From: Entrophospora sp. SA101
Lineage: Eukaryota > Glomeromycota > Glomeromycetes > Entrophosporales > Entrophosporaceae
Assembly: GCA_958430865.1 (NCBI GenBank)
Contig: CAUDNR010000069.1
Span: 3,598-67,597 of the forward strand
DNA length: 64,000 bases
Direction: 5' to 3'
A model generated the notes under the pieces. That model had not been told where the DNA came from, did no database searches, and was given only the letters and a program-made list of their open reading frames with translations. The position numbers and the translations under genes were made by a program. This document shows positions 621 to 36,491 of this stretch, piece by piece; position 1 is the first letter of the stretch, and each line of letters starts with the position of its first letter.

Positions 621-3040
621 ACTCACATGCTATTTCAGTATTTATTATTTAAAGTAATAATGATGAAAATATTTATTGGCTATTTATTATTTAAAATAAA
701 ATGAAAATCGACAGTTAATATTTTTCAAAAATAATTATATTGACTGTAGTAATAATAATGATGATGAAAATACTTACGGACTATTTATTATTTAAAATAA
801 AATGAAAATAAACAATTAATATTTTTCAAAAACAATGATATTGATTGTAGTAATAATAATAATGATGAAAATACTTACTTGCTATTATTTGAAATAAAAT
901 GAAAATCAACAGTTAATATTTTTCAAAAACAATGATATTGACTGCAATAATAATATTGATGATGAAAATACTTACGGGCTACTTATTATTAAATAAAATG
1001 AAAATTAACAGTTAATTAATATTTTCAAAAACAATGATATTGGCTGCAATAAATAATGATGATGAAAATACTTACGGACTATTTATTATTTAAAATAAAA
1101 TGAAAATCAACAGTTAATATTTTCAAAACAATGATATTGATTGTAGTAATAATAATGATGAAAACACTTACGGACTATTTATTATTTAAATAAAATAAAA
1201 ATTAACAGTTAATTAATATTTTCAAAAACAATGATATTGACTGTAGTAATAGTAATGATGATGAAAATACTTACGGACTATTTATTATTTAAAATAAAAT
1301 GAAAATCAACAGTTAATATTTTCAAAAACAATGATATTGACTGCAATAATAATATTGATGGTGAAAATACTTACGTGCTGTTTATTATTTAAAATAAAAT
1401 GAAAATTAACAGTTAATTAATATTTTCAAAAATAATGATATTGACTGTAATAATAATATTGATGGTGATAAAGACTAGTGCCGTAAATTATGATGATGGT
1501 AGTAATTGTATTTACAGCATATAAAAAGTGGTTGCAATTACTTTTGCGACCACTTTTGCAACCATACTTTTTCCTTTTTTGGATTACGGCACTAGTCTTT
1601 AGATGGTGAAGATACTTACGTGCTATTTATTATTTAAAATAAAATGAAAATTAACAGTTAATTAATATTTTCAAAAATAATGATATTGACTGTAGTAATA
1701 ATAATGATGATGAAAATACTTACAAGACACTTTATTATTTAAAATAAAACGAAAATCAACAATTAATATTTTTCAAAAATAATGATATTGACTGTAGTAA
1801 TAATAATGATGATGAAAATACTTACGGACTATTTATTATTTAAAATGAAATGAAAATCAACAGTTAATATATTTCAAAAACAATGATATTGACTGCAATA
1901 ATAATAATGATGGTGAAAATACTTACCAACTATTAAATATTTAAAATAAAATGAAAATCAACAGTTAATATTTTTCAAAAACAATGATATTGACTATAGT
2001 GATATAATGATGATGAAAATACTTACGGACTATTTATTATTTAAAATAAATGAAAATCAACAGTTAATATGTTTTCAAAAACAATGATATTGACTGTAGT
2101 AATAGTAATGATGATGAAAATACTTACTCACTATTTATTATTTAAAATAAAACAAAAATCAACAGTTAATATGTTTTCAAAAACAATGATATTGACTGTA
2201 GTAATAATAATGATGAAAATACTTACATCCTATGTTTATTATTTAGGATAAAACGAAAATCAACAATTAATATTTTTCAAAAAATTTGATATTGACTGTA
2301 GTAATAATAATGATGATGAAATACTTACGAACTATTTATTATTTAAAATAAAACAAAAATCAACAGTTAATATTTTTTTAAAAAATGATATTGGCTGCAA
2401 TAATAATAATGATGATGAAAATACTTACTGACTATTTTATTATTTAAAATAAAACAAAAATCAACAGTTAATATTTTTCAAAAACAATGATATTGACTGT
2501 AGTAATAGTAATGATGAAAATACTTACGGACTATTTATTATTTAAAATAAAACAAAAATCAATAGTTAATATTTTTCAAAAACAATGATATTGGATGCAA
2601 TAATAATAATGATAATGAAATACTTACTCTCTATTTAATTATTTAAAATAAATGAAAATCAACAGTTAATATCTTTCAAAAAACAATGATATTGATTGTA
2701 GTAATAATAATTATGAAAACACTTACGGACTATTTATTATTTAAATAAAATGAAAATTAACAGTTAATTAATATTTTCAAAACAATGATATTGACTGTAG
2801 TAATAGTAATGATGATGAAAATACTTACTCGCTATTTATTATTTAAAATAAAAATGAAAATCAACAGTTAATATTTTCCAAAAACAAAGATATTGACTGT
2901 AGTAATAGTAATTATGATGAAAATACTTACCAGCTATTTGTTATTGAAAATAAAATGAAATCAACAGTTAATAATTTTTTAAAAACAATGATATTGACTG
3001 TAGTAATAGTAATGATGAAAATACTTACTCCCCTATTATG
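573..3040 (-). repeat. Tandem array of about 100-bp intron/micro-exon units (array A)
   Basis: About 24 head-to-tail units. Read on the minus strand each is GTAAGTATTTTCATC, a run of ATT/ACT triplets, CAGTCAATATCATTG, a TTAAC branch-like site, a T-rich stretch, AAATAATAAATAG, then a variable triplet and the next GTAAGT. Introns are about 95-99 nt; the one holding the hAT-like MITE is 242 nt. Splice-site hexamers are nearly invariant, while the triplets between them are the most variable positions in the unit. On the plus strand the same array appears as ACTTAC, triplet, CTATTTATT. Confidence 0.95.
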
Positions 3041-3307
3041 ATTTAAAATAAAATAAAATGAAAATCAACAATTAATATATGTTTTTTTAAAAAGAAATGA
3101 TATTTATTGTAATAAATGATATATTGATTGTATCCAATTAATAATTATCAAAAAATAAAATGGGAATTTGGTGATGGACAAATTAGTAAGTCCGTTACAG
3201 CACATCATAATGAAATACTCACGTTTCTTCAAACTATGATCAAATGGTATTGCTAAAGCAACAACAGCAAAGATGATCAAGAATAGGAGGAAAATATTGA
3301 ATTTCAT
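673..3307 (-). CDS. Micro-exon gene A: secreted Pro-rich peptide precursor encoded by 22 micro-exons
   Basis: Not a family I recognise. Exon 1 (3307-3223, 85 nt) encodes a signal peptide, MKFNIFLLFLIIFAVVALA, then IPFDHSLKK, and stops after the first base of an Arg codon at a GTGAGT donor. About 100-bp units follow, each an intron ending TAG, a micro-exon, and a new GTAAGT donor. Micro-exons in gene order are GGGA (3032-3029), CTG, CGA, TCC, AGA, TCC, TCA, TTC, GAT, TGA, TCC, TTG, TCC, TGTCTT (1729-1724), CAC, CAC, TCC, TCC, TCC, CCC, CAA, TCC (780-778). The unit at 679 has lost its donor, so translation runs into TAA at 675-673. The joined frame is open: KKR, then DCDPDPHSIDPCPVFTTP, then PPPNPQ, stop (53 residues in total). 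Triplets sit in phase 2, so the TGA micro-exon is harmless. Inference: signal cleavage after ALA, Kex2 cleavage after KKR, and a 24-residue mature peptide made wholly from micro-exons. Splicing itself is predicted, not observed. Confidence 0.75.
1469..1601. mobile_element. hAT-like MITE in an array intron (copy 1)
   Basis: A 133-bp element with perfect 18-bp terminal inverted repeats (TAAAGACTAGTGCCGTAA). It is flanked by an exact 8-bp direct duplication, GATGGTGA (1461-1468 and 1602-1609). An 8-bp target duplication is typical of hAT elements. It has no coding capacity. It lies within the intron between two CAC micro-exons of gene A, so it lengthens the intron without touching the frame. Confidence 0.9.
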
Positions 3308-3893: not shown

Positions 3894-4100
3894 ATGAATT
3901 GTTTCAAGTTGTGATTTATTGATTTCCAATAGAGCTACCATCAGCAAAAAACAGTATCACATTCTTTACCAGCTTCATTTAACACTTACTGGTTCTTCTT
4001 GATCGTTGTGATCACTTTTGAAATAAGTCCATGTCCAATTACGTTTTTGTCTGTTTGGTCTTAAATGATGGTGATTGTTTATTTGAAGACAAACTAGCCA
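3894..4100 (-). pseudogene. BED-type zinc finger remnant (hAT transposase-like)
   Basis: The minus strand reads RPNRQKRNWTWTYFKSDHND, then after a frameshift CLNEAGKECDTVF, then ADGSSIGN. This resembles the aromatic WTWTYF, Cys and LxxH pattern of BED fingers fused to hAT transposases. Stops and at least one frameshift break it. It lies upstream of micro-exon gene A on the same strand. The duplicated block ends exactly here (at 4100). Confidence 0.5.
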
Positions 4101-4903
4101 CAAGGAAAGGAGTAAATAACAACAAGTAATATTTATTTATTTTTGATTCAACTGAGAGAAAATACATAGATTTTAATTTATATATATAAATGTTAAATAT
4201 TAAAAAACACTTGAACCCAAAGCAAAGGAAATTAATATATTAATTTTTAAAACTAGTTTCACACTTGATAAATTTAAGAATGGCTATTCCTTTGATATAA
4301 ATAAAGAAATTGATTATGCGAATAGCAATTAATCGAAATATTTCCATTTACCATTACTATTATTATGGCGTCATCTAAATACTGCAATGACTGCGCCATG
4401 ACCCGAACTTTTGGAAAAAAATAAAACTTGTAGTATTGCATATTAATATCTATTTCATACAGATTCAGGTATGCGATTTATATTTTCAAATTACAAATGG
4501 CCTTTTCTGTAAGCATCCGTATATCTAAAGGATTTCTTGGTTTTGTAATAATTTTTTCCTATATATTACTGTTATATATATAATAATAACATTATTACAA
4601 CTACACTAATATTTTTAGTGATCGGCAAAAAATTATCTACTGTATCATAGTAAAATTTGTGTTACCTATACCCTTAAAAATTTAGCCAGATCCATAATTT
4701 TCGCTGGCACTTTACTAACAAAACAATCATCATGATGTCGTCAGTTTTTTTTTTTTTCATATTAATCATGCTTAGCGTGGTAATAGGATACGCGATAATG
4801 TTAATGTAAATAAGAAACTTTTTAAAAAAAGTTTTTTACAATTACTAAAATATTAATAAACAAACATCTAAACTAATTTCAAAATATTATATACTTCTGT
4901 TCA
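4101..4903. other. Intergenic, nothing recognised
   Basis: Unique AT-rich DNA between the end of the duplicated block and the RING gene. No convincing frame, RNA gene or terminal repeats were seen. Confidence 0.5.
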
Positions 4904-6693: not shown

Positions 6694-8545
6694 CATTACT
6701 GTTTTCAATATACTTGGGTTCATAAAACTGTTTTTCTGTGAATCTCTCTAAAACTAATTAACTAACACTAGACAAGACCTACAAAACTTGGAAAGCAAGT
6801 TTTGTAAAATATACTTGATGAATGTTTTATCTAGTTGTGTGATAGGCGGGTTGATTATGATACTTATTTGAAAATGCCATACAAGTATTTAAAATTCAAA
6901 AAAACGCAATAGTTCTTTACCTATTACCATATATTTTTGTATCTCACTAAATACTTGATCGAATTGAGTAATCTTAGATTCAAAAGAAAGCCTTAATCGT
7001 ATTGTACATCGTATTCGAAACTTATTTATAGTAAATATGAAACAATGTGACTTAATATTGATTTCAAATCACAATTCGTTAATGCATTTTAATAATAATA
7101 TTAAATATCTCTTTACAATTCTCTTCTCTTTTTTGACAATTTGCACATTATTGTTGCTTGCTCATAGAGGTTGGCACTAAGGTTGCTTGCCGAAACCTCT
7201 TTGTGACTGTCAAAACTCTGGCGAAACTCTAATGAACAATTAGTATATATCTTGTCAAAACCCTGACGATTGACCAAACCTCCAAATGCAAAACTCTAAT
7301 AAACAATTAATGTATAACCTGACGAAACTCTGTCAACTGATTTCTGGAGGAATTTCACCCACAACCTTAAAATTAAAAGTTAACTGATTAACCAGTTAGA
7401 AATGGTTAATATTAACTTTATAATTTAGTCACGTGAAATTTTTAACTGATAAATTCAATCGTTTGTTATTTATAGTTAAGAATATTTGAACCCATTAAGA
7501 ATCCGGGTAATCCATTCAATTATGATGATCAGTGCAGGCCTCTACATCACATCATAACTGGAACAACATATATTATTTATTATTTTTAGATACGTTCTAA
7601 AAGGCATATAGAAGACAAAATGTATATAGATACTTTTTAAATAATATTTTTTGTTTAATTTATGTTGTTCTTATGCAATATAAATATTAAAAAAACATTG
7701 CTTATTAATCTAATGATAAAATAATAAATATAAATAATGAAGTAAAGGAATATGAAAGTAAAAAAGAATATAATCTATATTACCAAAAATTTATAAGAGA
7801 ATTTACTATTTAAAATAAAATGAAAATCAACAGTTGATATTTTTCAAAACAATGAAATGATATTGACTGTAGTAATAATAATGATGAAAATACTCACATG
7901 CTATTTCAGTATTTATTATTTAAAGTAATAATGATGAAAATATTTATTGGCTATTTATTATTTAAAATAAAATGAAAATCGACAGTTAATATTTTTCAAA
8001 AATAATTATATTGACTGTAGTAATAATAATGATGATGAAAATACTTACGGACTATTTATTATTTAAAATAAAATGAAAATAAACAATTAATATTTTTCAA
8101 AAACAATGATATTGATTGTAGTAATAATAATAATGATGAAAATACTTACTTGCTATTATTTGAAATAAAATGAAAATCAACAGTTAATATTTTTCAAAAA
8201 CAATGATATTGACTGCAATAATAATATTGATGATGAAAATACTTACGGGCTACTTATTATTAAATAAAATGAAAATTAACAGTTAATTAATATTTTCAAA
8301 AACAATGATATTGGCTGCAATAAATAATGATGATGAAAATACTTACGGACTATTTATTATTTAAAATAAAATGAAAATCAACAGTTAATATTTTCAAAAC
8401 AATGATATTGATTGTAGTAATAATAATGATGAAAACACTTACGGACTATTTATTATTTAAATAAAATAAAAATTAACAGTTAATTAATATTTTCAAAAAC
8501 AATGATATTGACTGTAGTAATAGTAATGATGATGAAAATACTTAC
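6694..8545. repeat. Direct repeat, copy also at 33415-35266
   Basis: The block from CATTACTGTTTTC onward is repeated 26,721 bp downstream with one seen difference (A at 6970, G at 33691). It contains the 3' end of a micro-exon array. The match ends exactly at a micro-exon, where GGA here corresponds to AGA at 35267. 6357-7271 itself holds no supported gene. Confidence 0.9.
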
Positions 8546-9849
8546 GGACTATTTATTATTTAAAATAAAATGAAAATCAACAGTTAATATTTTCAAAAAC
8601 AATGATATTGACTGCAATAATAATATTGATGGTGAAAATACTTACGTGCTGTTTATTATTTAAAATAAAATGAAAATTAACAGTTAATTAATATTTTCAA
8701 AAATAATGATATTGACTGTAATAATAATATTGATGGTGATAAAGACTAGTGCCGTAAATTATGATGATGGTAGTAATTGTATTTACAGCATATAAAAAGT
8801 GGTTGCAATTACTTTTGCGACCACTTTTGCAACCATACTTTTTCCTTTTTTGGATTACGGCACTAGTCTTTAGATGGTGAAGATACTTACGTGCTATTTA
8901 TTATTTAAAATAAAATGAAAATTAACAGTTAATTAATATTTTCAAAAATAATGATATTGACTGTAGTAATAATAATGATGATGAAAATACTTACAAGACA
9001 CTTTATTATTTAAAATAAAACGAAAATCAACAATTAATATTTTTCAAAAATAATGATATTGACTGTAGTAATAATAATGATGATGAAAATACTTACGGAC
9101 TATTTATTATTTAAAATGAAATGAAAATCAACAGTTAATATATTTCAAAAACAATGATATTGACTGCAATAATAATAATGATGGTGAAAATACTTACCAA
9201 CTATTAAATATTTAAAATAAAATGAAAATCAACAGTTAATATTTTTCAAAAACAATGATATTGACTATAGTGATATAATGATGATGAAAATACTTACGGA
9301 CTATTTATTATTTAAAATAAATGAAAATCAACAGTTAATATGTTTTCAAAAACAATGATATTGACTGTAGTAATAGTAATGATGATGAAAATACTTACTC
9401 ACTATTTATTATTTAAAATAAAACAAAAATCAACAGTTAATATGTTTTCAAAAACAATGATATTGACTGTAGTAATAATAATGATGAAAATACTTACATC
9501 CTATGTTTATTATTTAGGATAAAACGAAAATCAACAATTAATATTTTTCAAAAAATTTGATATTGACTGTAGTAATAATAATGATGATGAAATACTTACG
9601 AACTATTTATTATTTAAAATAAAACAAAAATCAACAGTTAATATTTTTTTAAAAAATGATATTGGCTGCAATAATAATAATGATGATGAAAATACTTACT
9701 GACTATTTTATTATTTAAAATAAAACAAAAATCAACAGTTAATATTTTTCAAAAACAATGATATTGACTGTAGTAATAGTAATGATGAAAATACTTACGG
9801 ACTATTTATTATTTAAAATAAAACAAAAATCAATAGTTAATATTTTTCA
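7272..9849. repeat. Tandem duplicate of 1-2578
   Basis: Offset 7,271 bp; I saw no difference over the compared stretches. It carries the 3' two thirds of the micro-exon array, its hAT-like MITE and the 3' flank. It lacks exon 1 and instead runs into a second array, so together they form gene B. Confidence 0.93.
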
Positions 9850-12421
9850 AAACAATGATATTGACTGCAATAATAATAATGATGAAAATACTTGCATCCT
9901 ATTTATTTTTAAAATAAAATGAAAATCAACAGTTAATATTTTTCAAAAACAATGATATTGACTGTAGTAATAATATTGATGAAAACACTTACTCTCTATT
10001 TATTTTTTAAAATAAAATGAAAATAAACAGTTAATATTTTCAAAAACAATGATATTGACTGTAGTAATAATAGTGATGAAGATACTTACCCACTATTTAT
10101 TATTTAAAATAAAATGAAAATCAACAGTTAATATTTTTCAAAAACAATGATATTGACTGTAGTAATAATGATGATGAAAATACTTACTGGCTATTTATTA
10201 TTAAAATAAAATGAAAATTAACAGTTAATGTTTTTCAAAAATAATGATATTGATTGTAGTAATAATAATGATGAAAAATACTTACTTTCTATTTATTATT
10301 TAAATAAAATAAAAATTAACAGTTAATTAATATTTTCAAAAACAATGATATTGACTGTAGTAATAGTAATGATGATGAAAATACTTACGGACTATTTATT
10401 ATTTAAAATAAAATGAAAATCAACAGTTAATATTTTCAAAAACAATGATATTGACTGCAATAATAATATTGATGGTGAAAATACTTACGTGCTGTTTATT
10501 ATTTAAAATAAAATGAAAATTAACAGTTAATTAATATTTTCAAAAATAATGATATTGACTGTAATAATAATATTGATGGTGATAAAGACTAGTGCCGTAA
10601 ATTATGATGATGGTAGTAATTGTATTTACAGCATATAAAAAGTGGTTGCAATTACTTTTGCGACCACTTTTGCAACCATACTTTTTCCTTTTTTGGATTA
10701 CGGCACTAGTCTTTAGATGGTGAAGATACTTACGTGCTATTTATTATTTAAAATAAAATGAAAATTAACAGTTAATTAATATTTTCAAAAATAATGATAT
10801 TGACTGTAGTAATAATAATGATGATGAAAATACTTACAAGACACTTTATTATTTAAAATAAAACGAAAATCAACAATTAATATTTTTCAAAAATAATGAT
10901 ATTGACTGTAGTAATAATAATGATGATGAAAATACTTACGGACTATTTATTATTTAAAATGAAATGAAAATCAACAGTTAATATATTTCAAAAACAATGA
11001 TATTGACTGCAATAATAATAATGATGGTGAAAATACTTACCAACTATTAAATATTTAAAATAAAATGAAAATCAACAGTTAATATTTTTCAAAAACAATG
11101 ATATTGACTATAGTGATATAATGATGATGAAAATACTTACGGACTATTTATTATTTAAAATAAATGAAAATCAACAGTTAATATGTTTTCAAAAACAATG
11201 ATATTGACTGTAGTAATAGTAATGATGATGAAAATACTTACTCACTATTTATTATTTAAAATAAAACAAAAATCAACAGTTAATATGTTTTCAAAAACAA
11301 TGATATTGACTGTAGTAATAATAATGATGAAAATACTTACATCCTATGTTTATTATTTAGGATAAAACGAAAATCAACAATTAATATTTTTCAAAAAATT
11401 TGATATTGACTGTAGTAATAATAATGATGATGAAATACTTACGAACTATTTATTATTTAAAATAAAACAAAAATCAACAGTTAATATTTTTTTAAAAAAT
11501 GATATTGGCTGCAATAATAATAATGATGATGAAAATACTTACTGACTATTTTATTATTTAAAATAAAACAAAAATCAACAGTTAATATTTTTCAAAAACA
11601 ATGATATTGACTGTAGTAATAGTAATGATGAAAATACTTACGGACTATTTATTATTTAAAATAAAACAAAAATCAATAGTTAATATTTTTCAAAAACAAT
11701 GATATTGGATGCAATAATAATAATGATAATGAAATACTTACTCTCTATTTAATTATTTAAAATAAATGAAAATCAACAGTTAATATCTTTCAAAAAACAA
11801 TGATATTGATTGTAGTAATAATAATTATGAAAACACTTACGGACTATTTATTATTTAAATAAAATGAAAATTAACAGTTAATTAATATTTTCAAAACAAT
11901 GATATTGACTGTAGTAATAGTAATGATGATGAAAATACTTACTCGCTATTTATTATTTAAAATAAAAATGAAAATCAACAGTTAATATTTTCCAAAAACA
12001 AAGATATTGACTGTAGTAATAGTAATTATGATGAAAATACTTACCAGCTATTTGTTATTGAAAATAAAATGAAATCAACAGTTAATAATTTTTTAAAAAC
12101 AATGATATTGACTGTAGTAATAGTAATGATGAAAATACTTACTCCCCTATTATGATTTAAAATAAAATAAAATGAAAATCAACAATTAATATATGTTTTT
12201 TTAAAAAGAAATGATATTTATTGTAATAAATGATATATTGATTGTATCCAATTAATAATTATCAAAAAATAAAATGGGAATTTGGTGATGGACAAATTAG
12301 TAAGTCCGTTACAGCACATCATAATGAAATACTCACGTTTCTTCAAACTATGATCAAATGGTATTGCTAAAGCAACAACAGCAAAGATGATCAAGAATAG
12401 GAGGAAAATATTGAATTTCAT
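7944..12421 (-). CDS. Micro-exon gene B: two-module peptide precursor with 39 micro-exons
   Basis: Exon 1 (12421-12337) is identical to gene A's. Micro-exons 1-17 repeat gene A's order (GGGA at 12146-12143 to TCC at 10391-10389). Five private ones follow: AAA (10288-10286), CCA (10190-10188), TGG (10092-10090), AGA (9995-9993), GAT (9898-9896, with a GC-type donor GCAAGT). The series then re-enters gene A's order at TCC (9801-9799) and ends at the same donor-less unit, with stop TAA at 7946-7944. The joined frame has no stop: after KKR it reads DCDPDPHSIDPCPVFTT, PNHGEI, PHSIDPCPVFTT, PPPPNPQ (precursor 71 residues, predicted mature part 42). The doubled PHSIDPCPVFTT module follows directly from array duplication. 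The gene spans 4.5 kb for a 216-nt coding sequence. Function unknown; secreted signal or effector peptide by inference. Confidence 0.72.
8740..8872. mobile_element. hAT-like MITE (copy 2)
   Basis: Same element, TIRs and GATGGTGA target duplication as at 1469-1601, carried along by the 7,271-bp duplication. It is intronic in gene B. Confidence 0.9.
10583..10715. mobile_element. hAT-like MITE (copy 3)
   Basis: Third identical copy of the 133-bp element with its 8-bp target duplication, again between the two CAC micro-exons, here in the upstream half of gene B. Confidence 0.9.
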
Positions 12422-13007
12422 TTTGATTGATTGTTCAGTTAATTCTTGTCAGTTTTCAATTTTTTTCTTATGAGAAAATTTTCTTGGCCTTTTCAAATTG
12501 TATGAAGGATATTTATAAAAAAAGAATCAAGGAAGAGTCGTTGTTTATAAAAAAAAAGAATTAAGGAAGAGTCGGTATTTATAAAAATTTATAATGATGA
12601 AATTTTTTTTACAGATAAATGAATCCTTTAAATATTCAATATCATCTATCGGAATTTAACGGTTTAAGCTCAAATAAACTTTTGAAGCCAGACACCAATG
12701 ATAAAGATTTTTGTCTAAAAAAAAACATTTTTTTAAAAAAAAAGCCCAATTACGAGATGAATTAATAAATACTATGGATGTGCGAGTACAAACTTTTTAA
12801 AAAAAACCTTTATGGAATAAAAATAAAATTGAACGAATATAATATACTAACGTACCATACATACTATGAGTTAGAAAGAAATGTTAAAGATTCGTTTCAG
12901 GATTTTATGCTATTATTTATTTATCATTATGAGCCGTTAATATTAAAAGGTTTTTCAATAGCAAATATTATTGGATAATATTAATATATTAATTATTTAA
13001 TTGAAGG

Positions 13008-13214
13008 ATGAATTGTTTCAAGTTGTGATTTATTGATTTCCAATAGAGCTACCATCAGCAAAAAACAGTATCACATTCTTTACCAGCTTCATTTAACACT
13101 TACTGGTTCTTCTTGATCGTTGTGATCACTTTTGAAATAAGTCCATGTCCAATTACGTTTTTGTCTGTTTGGTCTTAAATGATGGTGATTGTTTATTTGA
13201 AGACAAACTAGCCA
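13008..13214 (-). pseudogene. BED-type zinc finger remnant (copy 2)
   Basis: Same broken frame as at 3894-4100. In this copy the base after the duplication edge restores an ATG (minus strand ATGGCTAGTTTG), but the downstream frame is still interrupted. Confidence 0.45.
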
Positions 13215-13746
13215 TGTTTCTCAGTGAAAAAAGACGCCAGTTTTCTTGAAAGGATTGAAAGATTGCGTAAATCTTTTTATGTGATTGCTGTATGACTTCC
13301 TAATTTGGTAAATTTTTATGTATTGACAGCTGCTGCGCACAACTTTAGTATTTATTAGTACTTGTATATAATATTTGACAGGACCCGCAATCTTCATAGA
13401 CAGGGTTTGATCCGGACCAAAATTAAGTTTAATATTAATGTATAACTTGACAGGACCCCGCAAACTTCATAGATAAGTTGCTGCAGCAGACGGCACTACG
13501 ATAAAATTGTTAAATTAGTGGAACGTAACATAACATAAAAATCATCATAATCTTTTGAGTATGAACTATGAACTATCTATTATTAACTAGTACATTTCAG
13601 AGCCTTGCTCATAAGAACAGAGGCAGAAATTGTTAATTCATTCATTTCTGTAACACGAATTAATTCTTTAATAAAAACACTTTGTAGTCGGAAATCAAAC
13701 ATTAGAGTTTAATTGTCCATTTTGTTATCAGAGTGGTGTAGAACTA

Positions 13747-13851
13747 GAGTTTCTATTCGTGATACAAATTCTTATTCGTTTTATTCGAACAAACTTTCAA
13801 TGTAATTAATAAAACAAATAATTGAATAAAACCCTATTCGAATAGAAACTC
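13747..13851. mobile_element. Mariner-like MITE, TA target site
   Basis: 105 bp with terminal inverted repeats GAGTTTCTATTCG / CGAATAGAAACTC flanked by TA on both sides. The TA duplication and short palindromic ends suggest a Tc1/mariner-type MITE. A diverged relative of its interior (AAACTTTCAATGTAATT, AATAAAACAAATAA) lies near 63060-63120. Confidence 0.65.
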
Positions 13852-14603
13852 TATATGGAATTCTGAGGTTTTGTAAACTCGGGTTTGATTATTTGCTTTG
13901 GTAGAAAGCAAAGTTTTAATTTTTGGTTTTTGCTAAGCGTAAACCTTTTTGTGTAAACATAATGTGTTAAGATTGTTCGGCCAGATATAAAATGCTAACA
14001 TTTATTAACCAAAGTCGTTATCGCATATCACTTTGTTGTATTGTGTTAAAGTATTTTGAAAACGTACTGCTGAATTTAATCAGTCAAAGAAAAGTAAATA
14101 AACAGGAAACTTCACTAAAGCATTTGTTGCTTTATAATAAAGCTATATTTTATTTGTTGTTAATTATACCATAAAATTAAGTATTGCTTACAGATTTGCC
14201 GAAGCTTTCTAGGTACAAGAAAGAGGCAGTAAATTCATAATACAAGTTAATTGATGAGTATTGCATGCGATTAATTGATGAGTGCAGTTCAAAGGTTAAT
14301 GGTAGTTATATGGCCATTTAATTGATGATTATATCTGGTCTATATTATGACATTACAATCTAATTATGACATTACGACCTAATCACGCCATTACGGCTTT
14401 TGATTAAGGCTATCACTCAGATGCCGTAATATTAATACATTCACAAATCAATTTGGGTCGCATGTATAGTTTCAAATTATACCTGCAGTGCTAGATTCTG
14501 CTGGAGTTTCTATTCTTTGCATTTGGTCAATAACTAGTTGTGTTATTTTCCAATCATTACTTTTTAGTTAAATTAATTCCAATAAGTATATTTATTCGTT
14601 GTA

Positions 14604-14753
14604 CAGCTCACTCTCTCTATAACGACCACTAAGTAAAATTTCTCTATAACGAACTTCCCTGTTTCAATTTTTTATAATTTCTTTCTCTATAACGACCAAA
14701 AGCAGAGAAATTACATATAGGGGCAGAGGGTTCGTTATAGAGAGAGTGAACTG
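14604..14753. mobile_element. Pogo-like MITE, TA target site
   Basis: 150 bp with ends CAGCTCACTCTCTCTATAACGA and, inverted, CAGTTCACTCTCTCTATAACGA (shown in part), flanked by TA. CAGT-starting ends with a TATAACGA core are typical of pogo/Fot1-type elements. Internal repeats of CTCTATAACGA occur. No transposase. Confidence 0.8.
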
Positions 14754-15564
14754 TAATCGGAAAAAATTTTTTTTTGCTGGTTGGTTTTATCTTTGGACTA
14801 ATAAAAGTTAATTTCTCTGCTAAATTTGGAATTTGTCATCCAAAATCCTACACCCGATTCCTGTACCATAACTACTTCTATTATTATCTTTTTATTTATC
14901 TAATCATCAAGTAAGTGAAATGCTTGTTTTGAATTTCTAATTGTTCTATTGCTATTAAAATTTTCCTCATAAATTTTAAGTTTGTTCAATTTCCTGTCAA
15001 TTATTTTTTTATTTTTCAATTGGAGAAAAATTCTGATTATATCATCTCTTACAATGTCATTATCATCTAATTCCTCAAGAGGTCCTGCGCCATAATAGAT
15101 AACAATTTATCAAATATTTATTGGCCTTCATTATTTTATAAGATTTTTTTGTCAAATAAGTATATTATGGAATGAGTAGCTTTAATTAGAAAATGAATTG
15201 GTGCTTACTATAGAATGAGTTGGTGTTTACTGTGGAGGATGTTACGTTTATTTTGAAATGAGTTAAGTTTTTTGAAGAAATTTGCAAATTATTATTAAGA
15301 AATTTTACTTAAAATACTTTCAAATAGTAATGACACACTAAAGTTACATATAAAATAATTTTGATGTTGTTTCAACGCGTTTTGCCGTAATAATCATCAA
15401 GTATAATTGGTATGATTTGATGAAAAATTAAATGTAAATTTTTATTAGAAGAATATTATTGTTACCTAAATCCTATTTAAACATAACGTTCACCTTATTG
15501 CATTGCATATTGTCTCATTTACTCTACCATCTACAATTTTTATTTCCTTCTACATCTCCTCCGC

Positions 15565-16660
15565 TAGGTATGCCAAAAGTTCGGTTGCAACCGGTTATAA
15601 CCGGTTTTTATCAGTTTCGGTCACGGTTCGGTTTTGGTCTTAAACTGACCGGTTAACCGTCGGTTTTATATGATAAAAAACCGATAGAAAACCGATCAAC
15701 TAATCGTTCTGCTTGATATAAGTTTAAGTTTGATAAAATAAAATAGCTAAACCCCCTATTTTTTTAACGAATTTCTTCACACCTGTAGAATTTAGATGTT
15801 TTCCTGCTATTATTTAAAGTGACGTTACATTGAGTTACCCCAACGTTACATGAATTATTCTGTCAATTAATTACTTTTTGATAGGATAATTTTTATTAAT
15901 TAGTTAGAAATTAATTGGAATCTGTCAGTATTACACTTCACTATTCTTTTTTGTTTAGTGTGTTTTAGAAGCAATAATCATTTGCTAAAAAATTTTGAAA
16001 AAATCACTTTTTGGAAAATCTGAGGCTCTACAATTCCAAACCGATTATAAACAATAATATCTTTCTCTTTTCTGCAGAGCTCAAGAATTGAGAAGAGGGA
16101 TGGATATGAGCAAGCTTGAAAATAATCATTGTTTTTTTAAATTTGATTTTTAGGAAGGAATTTTCTGTTTTTCTTGGGTAACAAATTTAAAAAAGAATTA
16201 TTTTTTTTTTTCTGAATCGAACCACTAAACTTCTCCATGTGATAATAATAAATAATAAAATGAACTATTTGTTCGATTTTTAGTATTTGGTTAGTGTGAT
16301 AAATATCACTATCTTTAATGTGTTTAAATTATTATTAGTAAAAATTTCATAATTTAAGAAAAGCATTCATTATTTTTTATCGTTATCTTGATTAGCGCCA
16401 GTAAAAGAATTTTTTTTAATGTAAATATTTGGTTAGCGCGACGAAGATCATAGAATAATAACGAATAATTCAAATAGAAACCCTAGCCTAAAGTACTATT
16501 AATTAATACAAAAAATCATTCACAACCTGAATCGTAAATTAACTTATGTTATTTATGTAGTTTTGTGATTCGGATTTTTTTCATATAGCATCGATCGGTT
16601 TTGGTTGAAAACCGCGACTTTAAAACTGAAACCGAACCGGACCGACCGTTCGCATCCCTG
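15565..16660. mobile_element. Non-autonomous DNA transposon rich in CCGGTT/AACCGG
   Basis: About 1.1 kb bounded by imperfect inverted ends, TAGGTATGCCAAAAGTTCGG on the left and CAGGGATGCGAACGGTCGG on the right (read inward). Both ends have dense CGGTT/AACCG repeats just inside. The CAGGGATGCGAAC end resembles hAT termini. I could not identify a clean target duplication. No coding capacity. Confidence 0.55.
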
Positions 16661-16981
16661 ATTTGAATAAATACAGCTTCATGACAAACTAGAACAAATT
16701 TCATCCATCCTCTTCTATTATTTTTGTAATAGTAAGAACTCCAAATACCATATATAATTTCATAATCATGTTGACACAGATTGCATTTATAATTCGATTC
16801 TAATTTAAAAATAAAAAATAAAACTATTAGATTAAGAAGTTAGACTATCTCTATAGTATTTTTGTCGTATATACTATGTATGGCGTGCCGAACAGGTCAA
16901 AATAAATAATAATAATTAATAAATCAAGGGGCAAAAACAAAAATCCGTTGGAACGAGAGTTCGACTGTAGTCCTTTTATCA

Positions 16982-27647: not shown

Positions 27648-27777
27648 TAGTCAGATAAAAAAATTATCAATATTTTATAGCAACAATAAAAGATAATTTC
27701 TACCTTATTTTACTTATAAAAACTATTCATGCAAAGAATTAGATTGAGCTTTGTCATGAAGCTGTATTTATTCAAAT

Positions 27778-28873
27778 CAGGGATGCGAACGGTCGGTCCG
27801 GTTCGGTTTCAGTTTTAAAGTCGCGGTTTTCAACCAAAACCGATCGATGCTATATGAAAAAAATCCGAATCACAAAACTACATAAATAACATAAGTTAAT
27901 TTACGATTCAGGTTGTGAATGATTTTTTGTATTAATTAATAGTACTTTAGGCTAGGGTTTCTATTTGAATTATTCGTTATTATTCTATGATCTTCGTCGC
28001 GCTAACCAAATATTTACATTAAAAAAAATTCTTTTACTGGCGCTAATCAAGATAACGATAAAAAATAATGAATGCTTTTCTTAAATTATGAAATTTTTAC
28101 TAATAATAATTTAAACACATTAAAGATAGTGATATTTATCACACTAACCAAATACTAAAAATCGAACAAATAGTTCATTTTATTATTTATTATTATCACA
28201 TGGAGAAGTTTAGTGGTTCGATTCAGAAAAAAAAAAATAATTCTTTTTTAAATTTGTTACCCAAGAAAAACAGAAAATTCCTTCCTAAAAATCAAATTTA
28301 AAAAAACAATGATTATTTTCAAGCTTGCTCATATCCATCCCTCTTCTCAATTCTTGAGCTCTGCAGAAAAGAGAAAGATATTATTGTTTATAATCGGTTT
28401 GGAATTGTAGAGCCTCAGATTTTCCAAAAAGTGATTTTTTCAAAATTTTTTAGCAAATGATTATTGCTTCTAAAACACACTAAACAAAAAAGAATAGTGA
28501 AGTGTAATACTGACAGATTCCAATTAATTTCTAACTAATTAATAAAAATTATCCTATCAAAAAGTAATTAATTGACAGAATAATTCATGTAACGTTGGGG
28601 TAACTCAATGTAACGTCACTTTAAATAATAGCAGGAAAACATCTAAATTCTACAGGTGTGAAGAAATTCGTTAAAAAAATAGGGGGTTTAGCTATTTTAT
28701 TTTATCAAACTTAAACTTATATCAAGCAGAACGATTAGTTGATCGGTTTTCTATCGGTTTTTTATCATATAAAACCGACGGTTAACCGGTCAGTTTAAGA
28801 CCAAAACCGAACCGTGACCGAAACTGATAAAAACCGGTTATAACCGGTTGCAACCGAACTTTTGGCATACCTA
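27778..28873. mobile_element. Non-autonomous DNA transposon (inverted copy of 15565-16660)
   Basis: Mirror copy within the right arm. CAGGGATGCGAACGGTCGG here lies on the plus strand, directly inside the arm's inner edge. Confidence 0.55.
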
Positions 28874-29684
28874 GCGGAGGAGATGTAGAAGGAAATAAAA
28901 ATTGTAGATGGTAGAGTAAATGAGACAATATGCAATGCAATAAGGTGAACGTTATGTTTAAATAGGATTTAGGTAACAATAATATTCTTCTAATAAAAAT
29001 TTACATTTAATTTTTCATCAAATCATACCAATTATACTTGATGATTATTACGGCAAAACGCGTTGAAACAACATCAAAATTATTTTATATGTAACTTTAG
29101 TGTGTCATTACTATTTGAAAGTATTTTAAGTAAAATTTCTTAATAATAATTTGCAAATTTCTTCAAAAAACTTAACTCATTTCAAAATAAACGTAACATC
29201 CTCCACAGTAAACACCAACTCATTCTATAGTAAGCACCAATTCATTTTCTAATTAAAGCTACTCATTCCATAATATACTTATTTGACAAAAAAATCTTAT
29301 AAAATAATGAAGGCCAATAAATATTTGATAAATTGTTATCTATTATGGCGCAGGACCTCTTGAGGAATTAGATGATAATGACATTGTAAGAGATGATATA
29401 ATCAGAATTTTTCTCCAATTGAAAAATAAAAAAATAATTGACAGGAAATTGAACAAACTTAAAATTTATGAGGAAAATTTTAATAGCAATAGAACAATTA
29501 GAAATTCAAAACAAGCATTTCACTTACTTGATGATTAGATAAATAAAAAGATAATAATAGAAGTAGTTATGGTACAGGAATCGGGTGTAGGATTTTGGAT
29601 GACAAATTCCAAATTTAGCAGAGAAATTAACTTTTATTAGTCCAAAGATAAAACCAACCAGCAAAAAAAAATTTTTTCCGATTA

Positions 29685-29834
29685 CAGTTCACTCTCTCTA
29701 TAACGAACCCTCTGCCCCTATATGTAATTTCTCTGCTTTTGGTCGTTATAGAGAAAGAAATTATAAAAAATTGAAACAGGGAAGTTCGTTATAGAGAAAT
29801 TTTACTTAGTGGTCGTTATAGAGAGAGTGAGCTG
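29685..29834. mobile_element. Pogo-like MITE (inverted copy of 14604-14753)
   Basis: Same ends and TA flanks, in reverse orientation in the right arm. Confidence 0.8.
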
Positions 29835-30586
29835 TACAACGAATAAATATACTTATTGGAATTAATTTAACTAAAAAGTAATGATTGGAAAATAACACAA
29901 CTAGTTATTGACCAAATGCAAAGAATAGAAACTCCAGCAGAATCTAGCACTGCAGGTATAATTTGAAACTATACATGCGACCCAAATTGATTTGTGAATG
30001 TATTAATATTACGGCATCTGAGTGATAGCCTTAATCAAAAGCCGTAATGGCGTGATTAGGTCGTAATGTCATAATTAGATTGTAATGTCATAATATAGAC
30101 CAGATATAATCATCAATTAAATGGCCATATAACTACCATTAACCTTTGAACTGCACTCATCAATTAATCGCATGCAATACTCATCAATTAACTTGTATTA
30201 TGAATTTACTGCCTCTTTCTTGTACCTAGAAAGCTTCGGCAAATCTGTAAGCAATACTTAATTTTATGGTATAATTAACAACAAATAAAATATAGCTTTA
30301 TTATAAAGCAACAAATGCTTTAGTGAAGTTTCCTGTTTATTTACTTTTCTTTGACTGATTAAATTCAGCAGTACGTTTTCAAAATACTTTAACACAATAC
30401 AACAAAGTGATATGCGATAACGACTTTGGTTAATAAATGTTAGCATTTTATATCTGGCCGAACAATCTTAACACATTATGTTTACACAAAAAGGTTTACG
30501 CTTAGCAAAAACCAAAAATTAAAACTTTGCTTTCTACCAAAGCAAATAATCAAACCCGAGTTTACAAAACCTCAGAATTCCATATA

Positions 30587-30691
30587 GAGTTTCTATTCGA
30601 ATAGGGTTTTATTCAATTATTTGTTTTATTAATTACATTGAAAGTTTGTTCGAATAAAACGAATAAGAATTTGTATCACGAATAGAAACTC
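30587..30691. mobile_element. Mariner-like MITE (inverted copy of 13747-13851)
   Basis: Same terminal inverted repeats and TA flanks, carried by the right arm. Confidence 0.65.
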
Positions 30692-31223
30692 TAGTTCTAC
30701 ACCACTCTGATAACAAAATGGACAATTAAACTCTAATGTTTGATTTCCGACTACAAAGTGTTTTTATTAAAGAATTAATTCGTGTTACAGAAATGAATGA
30801 ATTAACAATTTCTGCCTCTGTTCTTATGAGCAAGGCTCTGAAATGTACTAGTTAATAATAGATAGTTCATAGTTCATACTCAAAAGATTATGATGATTTT
30901 TATGTTATGTTACGTTCCACTAATTTAACAATTTTATCGTAGTGCCGTCTGCTGCAGCAACTTATCTATGAAGTTTGCGGGGTCCTGTCAAGTTATACAT
31001 TAATATTAAACTTAATTTTGGTCCGGATCAAACCCTGTCTATGAAGATTGCGGGTCCTGTCAAATATTATATACAAGTACTAATAAATACTAAAGTTGTG
31101 CGCAGCAGCTGTCAATACATAAAAATTTACCAAATTAGGAAGTCATACAGCAATCACATAAAAAGATTTACGCAATCTTTCAATCCTTTCAAGAAAACTG
31201 GCGTCTTTTTTCACTGAGAAACA

Positions 31224-31430
31224 TGGCTAGTTTGTCTTCAAATAAACAATCACCATCATTTAAGACCAAACAGACAAAAACGTAATTGGACATGGACTTA
31301 TTTCAAAAGTGATCACAACGATCAAGAAGAACCAGTAAGTGTTAAATGAAGCTGGTAAAGAATGTGATACTGTTTTTTGCTGATGGTAGCTCTATTGGAA
31401 ATCAATAAATCACAACTTGAAACAATTCAT
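31224..31430 (+). pseudogene. BED-type zinc finger remnant (copy 3)
   Basis: Plus-strand mirror of the copy at 13008-13214, starting ATGGCTAGTTTGTC and broken by the same stops. It lies upstream of micro-exon gene C, in the same orientation. Confidence 0.45.
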
Positions 31431-32016
31431 CCTTCAATTAAATAATTAATATATTAATATTATCCAATAATATTTGCTATTGAAAAACCTTTTAATATTA
31501 ACGGCTCATAATGATAAATAAATAATAGCATAAAATCCTGAAACGAATCTTTAACATTTCTTTCTAACTCATAGTATGTATGGTACGTTAGTATATTATA
31601 TTCGTTCAATTTTATTTTTATTCCATAAAGGTTTTTTTTAAAAAGTTTGTACTCGCACATCCATAGTATTTATTAATTCATCTCGTAATTGGGCTTTTTT
31701 TTTAAAAAAATGTTTTTTTTTAGACAAAAATCTTTATCATTGGTGTCTGGCTTCAAAAGTTTATTTGAGCTTAAACCGTTAAATTCCGATAGATGATATT
31801 GAATATTTAAAGGATTCATTTATCTGTAAAAAAAATTTCATCATTATAAATTTTTATAAATACCGACTCTTCCTTAATTCTTTTTTTTTATAAACAACGA
31901 CTCTTCCTTGATTCTTTTTTTATAAATATCCTTCATACAATTTGAAAAGGCCAAGAAAATTTTCTCATAAGAAAAAAATTGAAAACTGACAAGAATTAAC
32001 TGAACAATCAATCAAA

Positions 32017-33419
32017 ATGAAATTCAATATTTTCCTCCTATTCTTGATCATCTTTGCTGTTGTTGCTTTAGCAATACCATTTGATCATAGTTTGAAGAAA
32101 CGTGAGTATTTCATTATGATGTGCTGTAACGGACTTACTAATTTGTCCATCACCAAATTCCCATTTTATTTTTTGATAATTATTAATTGGATACAATCAA
32201 TATATCATTTATTACAATAAATATCATTTCTTTTTAAAAAAACATATATTAATTGTTGATTTTCATTTTATTTTATTTTAAATCATAATAGGGGAGTAAG
32301 TATTTTCATCATTACTATTACTACAGTCAATATCATTGTTTTTAAAAAATTATTAACTGTTGATTTCATTTTATTTTCAATAACAAATAGCTGGTAAGTA
32401 TTTTCATCATAATTACTATTACTACAGTCAATATCTTTGTTTTTGGAAAATATTAACTGTTGATTTTCATTTTTATTTTAAATAATAAATAGCGAGTAAG
32501 TATTTTCATCATCATTACTATTACTACAGTCAATATCATTGTTTTGAAAATATTAATTAACTGTTAATTTTCATTTTATTTAAATAATAAATAGTCCGTA
32601 AGTGTTTTCATAATTATTATTACTACAATCAATATCATTGTTTTTTGAAAGATATTAACTGTTGATTTTCATTTATTTTAAATAATTAAATAGAGAGTAA
32701 GTATTTCATTATCATTATTATTATTGCATCCAATATCATTGTTTTTGAAAAATATTAACTATTGATTTTTGTTTTATTTTAAATAATAAATAGTCCGTAA
32801 GTATTTTCATCATTACTATTACTACAGTCAATATCATTGTTTTTGAAAAATATTAACTGTTGATTTTTGTTTTATTTTAAATAATAAAATAGTCAGTAAG
32901 TATTTTCATCATCATTATTATTATTGCAGCCAATATCATTTTTTAAAAAAATATTAACTGTTGATTTTTGTTTTATTTTAAATAATAAATAGTTCGTAAG
33001 TATTTCATCATCATTATTATTACTACAGTCAATATCAAATTTTTTGAAAAATATTAATTGTTGATTTTCGTTTTATCCTAAATAATAAACATAGGATGTA
33101 AGTATTTTCATCATTATTATTACTACAGTCAATATCATTGTTTTTGAAAACATATTAACTGTTGATTTTTGTTTTATTTTAAATAATAAATAGTGAGTAA
33201 GTATTTTCATCATCATTACTATTACTACAGTCAATATCATTGTTTTTGAAAACATATTAACTGTTGATTTTCATTTATTTTAAATAATAAATAGTCCGTA
33301 AGTATTTTCATCATCATTATATCACTATAGTCAATATCATTGTTTTTGAAAAATATTAACTGTTGATTTTCATTTTATTTTAAATATTTAATAGTTGGTA
33401 AGTATTTTCACCATCATTA
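32017..33419 (+). CDS. Micro-exon gene C, truncated at the inversion breakpoint
   Basis: Plus-strand copy of gene B's 5' part: exon 1 at 32017-32101, then GGGA (32292-32295) and eleven triplets to TTG (33395-33397). The intron after TTG begins GTAAGTATTTTCACC and crosses the breakpoint at 33415-33420 into unrelated sequence. The remaining micro-exons are missing. The spliced part gives KKR then DCDPDPHSIDP. If the nearest plausible downstream acceptor (CTAACACTAG, 33484-33493) were used, the next codon would be TGA, leaving an 11-residue mature peptide; this is speculation. The promoter region upstream is intact, so it may be transcribed. Confidence 0.55.
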
Positions 33420-35266
33420 CTGTTTTCAATATACTTGGGTTCATAAAACTGTTTTTCTGTGAATCTCTCTAAAACTAATTAACTAACACTAGACAAGACC
33501 TACAAAACTTGGAAAGCAAGTTTTGTAAAATATACTTGATGAATGTTTTATCTAGTTGTGTGATAGGCGGGTTGATTATGATACTTATTTGAAAATGCCA
33601 TACAAGTATTTAAAATTCAAAAAAACGCAATAGTTCTTTACCTATTACCATATATTTTTGTATCTCACTAAATACTTGATCGAATTGAGTGATCTTAGAT
33701 TCAAAAGAAAGCCTTAATCGTATTGTACATCGTATTCGAAACTTATTTATAGTAAATATGAAACAATGTGACTTAATATTGATTTCAAATCACAATTCGT
33801 TAATGCATTTTAATAATAATATTAAATATCTCTTTACAATTCTCTTCTCTTTTTTGACAATTTGCACATTATTGTTGCTTGCTCATAGAGGTTGGCACTA
33901 AGGTTGCTTGCCGAAACCTCTTTGTGACTGTCAAAACTCTGGCGAAACTCTAATGAACAATTAGTATATATCTTGTCAAAACCCTGACGATTGACCAAAC
34001 CTCCAAATGCAAAACTCTAATAAACAATTAATGTATAACCTGACGAAACTCTGTCAACTGATTTCTGGAGGAATTTCACCCACAACCTTAAAATTAAAAG
34101 TTAACTGATTAACCAGTTAGAAATGGTTAATATTAACTTTATAATTTAGTCACGTGAAATTTTTAACTGATAAATTCAATCGTTTGTTATTTATAGTTAA
34201 GAATATTTGAACCCATTAAGAATCCGGGTAATCCATTCAATTATGATGATCAGTGCAGGCCTCTACATCACATCATAACTGGAACAACATATATTATTTA
34301 TTATTTTTAGATACGTTCTAAAAGGCATATAGAAGACAAAATGTATATAGATACTTTTTAAATAATATTTTTTGTTTAATTTATGTTGTTCTTATGCAAT
34401 ATAAATATTAAAAAAACATTGCTTATTAATCTAATGATAAAATAATAAATATAAATAATGAAGTAAAGGAATATGAAAGTAAAAAAGAATATAATCTATA
34501 TTACCAAAAATTTATAAGAGAATTTACTATTTAAAATAAAATGAAAATCAACAGTTGATATTTTTCAAAACAATGAAATGATATTGACTGTAGTAATAAT
34601 AATGATGAAAATACTCACATGCTATTTCAGTATTTATTATTTAAAGTAATAATGATGAAAATATTTATTGGCTATTTATTATTTAAAATAAAATGAAAAT
34701 CGACAGTTAATATTTTTCAAAAATAATTATATTGACTGTAGTAATAATAATGATGATGAAAATACTTACGGACTATTTATTATTTAAAATAAAATGAAAA
34801 TAAACAATTAATATTTTTCAAAAACAATGATATTGATTGTAGTAATAATAATAATGATGAAAATACTTACTTGCTATTATTTGAAATAAAATGAAAATCA
34901 ACAGTTAATATTTTTCAAAAACAATGATATTGACTGCAATAATAATATTGATGATGAAAATACTTACGGGCTACTTATTATTAAATAAAATGAAAATTAA
35001 CAGTTAATTAATATTTTCAAAAACAATGATATTGGCTGCAATAAATAATGATGATGAAAATACTTACGGACTATTTATTATTTAAAATAAAATGAAAATC
35101 AACAGTTAATATTTTCAAAACAATGATATTGATTGTAGTAATAATAATGATGAAAACACTTACGGACTATTTATTATTTAAATAAAATAAAAATTAACAG
35201 TTAATTAATATTTTCAAAAACAATGATATTGACTGTAGTAATAGTAATGATGATGAAAATACTTAC
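33415..35266. repeat. Direct repeat copy of 6694-8545
   Basis: It joins the right arm at a short shared CATTAC. It carries the flank and the 3' end of an array in minus orientation. Thus arrays C (plus) and D (minus) face each other across this block. Confidence 0.9.
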
Positions 35267-35491
35267 AGACTATTTATTATTTAAAATAAAACAAAAATCA
35301 ATAGTTAATATTTTTAAAAAAAAATGATATTGGCTGCAATAATAATAATGATGATGAAAATACTTACTGACTATTTTGTTATTTAAAATAAAATGAAAAT
35401 TAACAGTTAATATCTTTCAAAAACAATGATATTGACTGTAGTAATAGTAATGATGAAAATACTTACGGACTATTTATTATTTAAAATAAAA
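34665..35491 (-). CDS. Micro-exon gene D, 3' part only (5' in gap)
   Basis: Minus-strand micro-exons readable from the gap edge: TCC (35469-35467), TCA (35370-35368), TCT (35269-35267), TCC, TCC, CCC, CAA, TCC, then the donor-less CCA unit and TAA at 34667-34665. In the same phase as gene A this reads PHLPPPNPQ-stop, a C-terminus that differs from A and B by micro-exon content. Donors and acceptors are intact. Exon 1 and most of the array are not sequenced. Confidence 0.55.
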
Positions 35492-36491
35492 NNNNNNNNN
35501 NNNNNNNNNNNNNNNNNNNNNNNNNNNNNNNNNNNNNNNNNNNNNNNNNNNNNNNNNNNNNNNNNNNNNNNNNNNNNNNNNNNNNNNNNNNNNNNNNNNN
35601 NNNNNNNNNNNNNNNNNNNNNNNNNNNNNNNNNNNNNNNNNNNNNNNNNNNNNNNNNNNNNNNNNNNNNNNNNNNNNNNNNNNNNNNNNNNNNNNNNNNN
35701 NNNNNNNNNNNNNNNNNNNNNNNNNNNNNNNNNNNNNNNNNNNNNNNNNNNNNNNNNNNNNNNNNNNNNNNNNNNNNNNNNNNNNNNNNNNNNNNNNNNN
35801 NNNNNNNNNNNNNNNNNNNNNNNNNNNNNNNNNNNNNNNNNNNNNNNNNNNNNNNNNNNNNNNNNNNNNNNNNNNNNNNNNNNNNNNNNNNNNNNNNNNN
35901 NNNNNNNNNNNNNNNNNNNNNNNNNNNNNNNNNNNNNNNNNNNNNNNNNNNNNNNNNNNNNNNNNNNNNNNNNNNNNNNNNNNNNNNNNNNNNNNNNNNN
36001 NNNNNNNNNNNNNNNNNNNNNNNNNNNNNNNNNNNNNNNNNNNNNNNNNNNNNNNNNNNNNNNNNNNNNNNNNNNNNNNNNNNNNNNNNNNNNNNNNNNN
36101 NNNNNNNNNNNNNNNNNNNNNNNNNNNNNNNNNNNNNNNNNNNNNNNNNNNNNNNNNNNNNNNNNNNNNNNNNNNNNNNNNNNNNNNNNNNNNNNNNNNN
36201 NNNNNNNNNNNNNNNNNNNNNNNNNNNNNNNNNNNNNNNNNNNNNNNNNNNNNNNNNNNNNNNNNNNNNNNNNNNNNNNNNNNNNNNNNNNNNNNNNNNN
36301 NNNNNNNNNNNNNNNNNNNNNNNNNNNNNNNNNNNNNNNNNNNNNNNNNNNNNNNNNNNNNNNNNNNNNNNNNNNNNNNNNNNNNNNNNNNNNNNNNNNN
36401 NNNNNNNNNNNNNNNNNNNNNNNNNNNNNNNNNNNNNNNNNNNNNNNNNNNNNNNNNNNNNNNNNNNNNNNNNNNNNNNNNNNNNNNNNNN
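35492..36491. other. Assembly gap (1000 N)
   Basis: Exactly 1000 N, probably a fixed-size scaffold gap. It starts inside array D and ends inside a GST pseudogene copy, so true size and adjacency are unknown. Confidence 0.95.

Follow-up and report, generated by a model that had tools for sequence, protein, structure and literature searches.

The closest described systems share parts of the architecture reported here. In the micro-exon genes (MEGs) of Schistosoma, which encode secreted, variable proteins, about 80% of the coding region lies in short symmetric exons of 6-36 bp (PMC5825161). Aphid bicycle genes, fast-evolving putative effector genes whose numerous small internal exons share one phase, have about 17 exons on average, while megacycle genes have more than 100 microexons (PMC9168663). 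Near-identical introns multiplied in one genome are described for fungal introner-like elements and for intron gain by tandem duplication (PMC4457414, PMC4974935, PMC9860276), and an AG directly before a donor is described for recursive splice sites (PMC5126111, PMC2773006). In arbuscular mycorrhizal fungi, the SP7-like and AGL genes encode variable secreted proteins, and an intron lies close to the leader or ahead of the repeats (PMC11333574, PMC8786786). The open-licence PubMed Central literature, as judged from titles and the starts of abstracts, yielded at most such analogues of single-codon-exon arrays, and the letters of the leader peptide had no match in it.

The window, that is, the whole 64-kb stretch of DNA analysed, contains a gene (gene 1, minus strand, 3307→673) that appears to be built mainly of 3-nt exons. 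Exon 1 (3223..3307) encodes a signal peptide and a short pro-region, MKFNIFLLFLIIFAVVALAIPFDHSLKK, plus 1 nt, and ends at the donor GTGAGT. A Kex2-like K-K-R motif, begun in exon 1, is finished by exon 2, a 4-nt exon (GGGA, 3029..3032) that fixes phase 2 for every later exon. The array proper (778..2933) consists of 20 three-nt exons and one 6-nt exon. Read along the minus strand and given with their start positions, these are CTG (2933), CGA (2831), TCC (2729), AGA (2630), TCC (2530), TCA (2431), TTC (2331), GAT (2229), TGA (2130), TCC (2029), TTG (1929), TCC (1828), TGTCTT (1729-1724), CAC (1622), CAC (1377), TCC (1277), TCC (1174), TCC (1078), CCC (978), CAA (881), and TCC (780). GTAAGT follows all 22 micro-exons (GGGA, the 20 three-nt exons, and the 6-nt exon), and the array introns are near-identical and about 100 bp long, forming a tandem repeat with a period of about 100. 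The terminal exon begins with CCAATAA (673..679), which completes a proline codon and adds glutamine and the stop codon at 675-673 (C CAA TAA). It is an array unit with ATAAAT at the donor position, so that the terminal exon would continue into the 3' UTR. The joined exons translate as ...KK R DCDPDPHSIDPCPVFTTPPPPNPQ stop. To our knowledge, no other gene with so many spliced 3-nt exons is known. Additionally, one array intron carries a MITE-like inverted-repeat insertion of 131 bp (1470..1600, unstranded; ends AAAGACTAGTGCCGTAA / TTACGGCACTAGTCTTT), which brings this intron to 242 nt and apparently leaves its splice sites unharmed.

The original prediction had described 22 tandem units, each with TAG before a triplet and a TTAAC branch-like site, joined into an uninterrupted frame from KKR to a stop. 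The number 22 holds for the micro-exons, but their composition is one of 4 nt, 20 of 3 nt, and one of 6 nt. TAG precedes 19 of the 20 three-nt exons, while CAG stands at 1377 and AAG before the 6-nt exon; some introns have TTAAT in place of TTAAC. Re-reading the joined exons confirmed the open frame, and the proposed end at 673 is indeed the last base of the stop. The proposed codon-by-codon assembly of the peptide agrees with the frame, the phase, the wobble position, the avoidance of stops, the terminal stops, and a database protein (P0002), all described below, but an exon of gene 1 is not a codon: being in phase 2, it supplies the third base of one codon and bases 1 and 2 of the codon after it. 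Exons that each equal one codon occur in relatives of gene 1.

The motif TAGNNNGTAAGT (TAG-NNN-GTAAGT) occurs at 71 sites in the window, of which 19 belong to gene 1, against 0.29 expected, and none of 100 shuffles reached 71. Three more array copies, one longer gene and two truncated ones, are present besides gene 1. Gene 2 (7944..12421, minus strand; low end, about 7944, inferred from its 7271-bp offset to gene 1) has an exon 1 identical to that of gene 1 (12421-12337) and GGGA at 12146-12143. Its array is longer, with a partial duplication and the extra triplets AAA CCA TGG AGA GAT, the last of which has a GCAAGT donor, and its frame is open. Gene 3 (32017..33403, plus strand) is an inverted copy with exon 1 at 32017, GGGA at 32292, and the first eleven 3-nt exons; it is truncated near 33424, at the end of an inverted duplication. 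Gene 4 (34764..35472, minus strand) is a partial array of eight TAGNNNGTAAGT units that adjoins an assembly gap. The inverted duplication is perfect over 5.7 kb (11014-16688 and 27750-33424), and the gap lies at about 35480-36510; the copy number in the window may therefore partly reflect recent duplication or an assembly artefact. The Pfam domains found (RGS, ZIP, SH3, and F-box) mark ordinary genes; the source is probably a fungus, perhaps akin to the arbuscular mycorrhizal fungi.

We read these loci as genes for small secreted, probably Kex2-processed peptides, whose mature part would be encoded in mostly 3-nt exons and joined by serial splicing of homologous introns of about 97 nt; judging from the DNA and a single database protein, we give this reading a probability of roughly 0.85. 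The signal peptide and the pro-region would come from one ordinary exon. Each short intron would then be recognized by intron definition, through its GTAAGT donor, TTAAC branch-like site, and TAG acceptor, and the introns would be removed successively until all codons are joined. The phase would depend on lead exons of 1, 4, or 7 nt, and the stop would lie in a degenerate or final unit. From the leader, the peptide is predicted to be cut by a Kex2-like protease at KR/KKR and secreted. The median intron length is 97.5 nt (n=328), and a TTAAC-like motif lies 15-65 nt from the acceptor in 316 introns, a raw count in AT-rich sequence; in 233 of these, the last such motif before the acceptor is TTAAC itself. 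Short introns of this kind suit intron definition; it is difficult to see how exon definition could act on 3 nt. The micro-exon donors in the models are mostly GTAAGT. Some units near array ends have no exon base (AG|GCAAGT or AG|GTAAGT) and thus resemble recursive splice sites.

Such arrays are not confined to the window. Across the 101 Mb of the assembly, GTAAGT-N(68-96)-AG-NNN-GTRAGT gave 1177 matches against 148 for a reversed-pattern control, and a leader-exon pattern with at most 3 mismatches gave 54 against 0. We inspected 27 of the 54 leader sites: 17 are followed by at least 7 three-nt exons, 6 carry a short, irregular, or cut-off array (L014, L018, L025, L029, L044, and L047), 3 have exon 1 without an array (L032, L033, and L037), and one (L039) hits the contig end. 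Exon 1 encodes a hydrophobic N-terminal leader in 23 models. In L043 a stop within exon 1 follows the leader; at L026/L034, the frame tried for the leader of the two C1 genes is interrupted by stops, although a protein match there is open over residues 4-33. The 346 exons parsed in 18 models comprise 285 of 3 nt, 27 of 4 nt, 11 of 1 nt, 11 of zero length, and 12 of 6-10 nt, a tally that takes in doubtful units at array ends and comes from a parser favouring 3 nt. The models were built by a dynamic programme whose scoring prefers 3-nt exons and demands listed donors, and a plain regular expression recovers the same exon lengths. The donor GTGGGT was admitted after a first run in which four units with this donor had been parsed as 7-nt exons and the frame had slipped; if it is left out, L020, L021, and L028 each lose the frame at a single unit, and L020 and L021 acquire stops. 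L015, L018, L025, and L026 were modelled at first and left out of the later set, which likewise excludes the C1 genes of L026/L034.

The assembly also contains a second, different-looking intron family, AGNNNGTAAGTATTATATTATAA, with 271 exact sites against 0 for the control. At the C24 locus, about eighteen three-nt-exon units belong to this family; a first exon was sought at this locus and not found. Arrays of the family (GTAAGTATTATATTATAATTTAAC...) lie on contigs C24, C69, C129, C166, C262, C312, C363, C513, and others (L027, 2138-3640). Among the C24 acceptors, CATAG stands mostly before AGN exons and AACCAG before most others. Downstream of the C410 gene, L038 contains a tandem repeat (4063-4685, reverse-complement) in which TTTGTACAA-GTAAGT or similar follows CAATAG with a spacing of about 57-86 bp, possibly another micro-exon-like array. 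A long insertion in the C1488 leader intron (L017, 2830-3380) has apparently left the splice sites intact.

The exon lengths follow a simple phase logic. Exon 1 is 70, 85, 91, or 94 nt long, always 1 mod 3 (23/23 models). In the window-type genes (the window gene itself, L012, L031, and L014), a 4- or 7-nt exon follows exon 1 and phase 2 is kept. Most other models have lead exons of 4+7, 4+1, 1+1, or 4+4 nt, which lead to phase 0, so that each 3-nt exon is then a codon. Specifically, the C1182 array reads AAC TGT GAA GCT GAT TGT AAT TTT CCC GGT ... and gives VKR SVNCEADCNFPGCYPGCDELCPQASLKFLAEL. Apparent 1-nt lead exons (AATAG|T|GTAAGT), which the frame requires, occur in L021, L024, L035, and L047. 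The array exons within one gene share one phase, 0 in most models and 2 in the window type. Three exceptions were seen: L036 has one lead exon missing from its model and was assigned phase 0 by likeness to its relatives; L029 has a different lead; and in L017 (C1488) a later 4-nt exon moves the phase once, from 2 to 0, with the sequence still open. A stop is reached at once or at most 2 codons into the terminal exon in L012, L017, L028, L030, L038, L041, and L043, and L024 and L035 have a stop codon split across two exons. In several genes, e.g. L020, L021, L040, and L046, the last exon is ambiguous. An unspliced donor in a phase-2 gene is read as xxG-TAA and carries its own stop, as GTAAGT and the phase directly show.

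Over the 297 codons of 14 models, with array ends set by hand, the predicted frame has 2 stops, each at the end of an array, against 5 and 45 in the other frames. Within-gene nucleotide shuffles (2000) gave a mean of 15.6 stops and a minimum of 3. Outside this test stood L014 (contig end), L017 and L029 (irregular), L036, the short L044, and the near-copies, namely the second window gene, L031, L042, and L045. The 18 untrimmed models have 4 stops in the predicted frame, confined to the last units, and 9 and 45 in the others. Stop triplets are absent from the 212 three-nt exons of 13 phase-0 genes, where 9.6 would be expected from column composition. The composition of the triplets also differs with phase: TGA, not read as a codon in phase 2, makes up 3/47 phase-2 triplets (Fisher 0.006), while T enrichment, as at a wobble base, falls on exon base 3 in phase 0 (137/212 vs 6/47; Fisher 6e-11) and on base 1 in phase 2 (25/47 vs 53/212; Fisher 3e-4), all P values being optimistic because the phase-2 triplets come from only three related genes. 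Triplet entropy is 1.95/1.94/1.65 bits, compared with 0.13-0.33 at intron bases +7 to +9; the low entropy at the AG and the donor is partly built in, since the models are scored in favour of 3-nt exons and donors on the list.

Even where the flanking introns differ by only about 5%, differences between triplets are close to saturation. Where flanks of 140 bases are 3-6% apart, triplet sites differ in 49% of cases between genes (44 pairs) and in 59% within a gene (25 pairs), a ratio overstated by the choice of pairs with low flank divergence. Among 85 close phase-0 unit pairs, 53/58 codon differences are non-synonymous, which on its own is no sign of selection since random codon pairs reach about 99%. 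Certain codons go with their own splice-site variants. TGT units have the donor GTGAGT or GTGGGT in 19/29 cases against 4/183 of the others, TGG units a G-rich acceptor in 8/8 against 9/204, likewise seen in CGG units, and GCT units ATATAG in 13/16 against 58/196; these features were chosen after a nearest-neighbour comparison of units. In that comparison, the nearest neighbour in another gene bears the same codon for 56/212 units (18 expected, maximum 33 in 200 permutations), while the mean similarity over ~60 nt of intron between same-codon units of different genes is not clearly higher (66 and 165 of 1000 permutations as large). The codon choice of the arrays is narrow and partly unlike that of six window ORFs: alanine is GCT in 16/16 (ORFs 41%), leucine CTG in 7/11 (2%), arginine CGG in 5/9 (0%), and proline CCT in 19/23 (31%). 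Synonymous choice correlates about equally with the window ORFs (0.70) and with intron trinucleotides (0.66), and the narrowness is not universal, as C139 has GCT, GCA, and GCG and C1488 has GGA.

Near-identical genes differ by whole units. C860 has RRR where C1507 has RR, and C514 differs from C1507 at 20.7 kb by TGG TGG CTT CCT. As each repeat consists of an intron and one codon, gain or loss of a repeat would change the peptide by one amino acid without a frameshift. Together, these patterns suggest that codon cassettes are copied and shuffled, and duplicated and reshuffled cassettes could yield new peptides; diversification may then be what the architecture serves. We lean, with some reserve, towards a broader picture in which the genome holds an alphabet of amino-acid cassettes, each a preferred codon with its own splice-site variant, and peptides would be written by duplicating, deleting, and reshuffling them, with unequal crossing-over editing residue by residue and splicing reading out the result.

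Two database proteins bear on the predicted product. P0002 (56 aa, from a 1,024-nt JGI contig) has the family leader followed by an unbroken mature peptide of 25 residues, RLPTVWCWDEQWAQWYDCRDPYVSE, which matches none of the array-gene models. An array gene for a protein of this length, with about 100 bp to each codon, would exceed 1,024 nt, so P0002 should represent a spliced transcript or an intronless copy; its contig may be a cDNA, or else may come from another organism in which the gene lacks introns. An intronless copy was sought in the assembly and none was found, as 56/56 matches end by residue 45 and cover exon 1 only. P0001 (ENA, 654-nt contig; a predicted protein) corresponds to exon 1 with read-through into the first intron, and its tail, rich in I, F, T, and N, is unlike that of P0002. 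A 13-sequence profile, applied to 316 candidates, retrieved P0001 and P0002 and no others. A database search with fragments of four joined mature peptides gave no candidate, and a scan of viral contigs with P0002 gave 29 pattern matches, none of which was confirmed.

The same observations can be set against other readings. Each array might be a tandem repeat within one long intron, its sites acting as decoys or recursive splice sites, with exon 1 spliced to a 3' exon and the triplets never present in mRNA. The zero-length units near some array ends fit this, as recursive splicing would produce them, and 3-nt exons are mechanistically hard. However, triplets that lie outside exons would not be expected to avoid stops in the predicted frame or to place their T-rich base according to reading phase, and neither the lead exons of 1, 4, or 7 nt nor the mature peptide that follows the leader in P0002 would be explained; we therefore consider a single long intron unlikely. 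Retention of the introns, by which translation would run from exon 1 straight into the first intron, with the array serving as 3' UTR or leading to decay, is barely credible in our judgement. P0001 is exactly such a reading, though a predicted and not an observed protein, and its tail does not resemble that of P0002; moreover, the frame, the phase, the wobble pattern, and the codon-linked splice sites would all be left unexplained.

It is also conceivable that the triplets once were exons and that most arrays are now decaying pseudogenes. Some loci do look damaged: L043 has its stop in exon 1, the leader of L026/L034 is apparently disrupted, L037, L032, and L033 lack arrays, and the window itself contains near-identical duplicated copies and a gap. 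General decay is nevertheless very improbable given that the two stops in 297 codons both lie at array ends and that the micro-exon donors are still mostly GTAAGT. The reading as spliced single-codon-sized exons accommodates the stop avoidance, the phase-dependent composition, and P0002 together, and we infer that splicing joins all the triplets.

If this reading is correct, the array genes represent an extreme gene architecture, in which the tandem repeat unit is 'one intron plus one codon', the routine exon size is at its limit, and purely intron-defined splicing is needed. They would also allow peptides to diversify by simple genetic means that avoid frameshifts. ORF callers and spliced-read aligners would miss such genes, and whole secretomes could therefore be absent from annotations.

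Compared with the known systems, the array genes resemble the Schistosoma MEGs in architecture, with a coding region of mostly short symmetric exons, and their variable predicted peptides may likewise be secreted, but their modal exon is 3 nt rather than 6-36 bp (PMC5825161), lengths of 1, 4, and 7 nt also occur, and their introns are near-identical and in tandem. Many small internal exons of one phase are shared with the aphid bicycle genes, for which the accessible part of the source describes no tandem single-codon exons with homologous introns (PMC9168663). The SP7-like genes with their conserved intron and the AGL genes with one to two introns share the placement of an intron near the leader or before repeats, and the excerpts available describe no micro-exon array in them (PMC11333574, PMC8786786). 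The zero-length units near some array ends recall recursive splice sites (PMC5126111, PMC2773006), whereas most array units carry 3 nt (285 against 11 zero-length units in 18 models) and the triplets behave as codons. Finally, as in introner-like elements and tandem-duplication intron gain (PMC4457414, PMC4974935, PMC9860276), near-identical introns have multiplied within one genome, but in the array genes each intron is multiplied along with a codon at a single locus, which gives rise to arrays.
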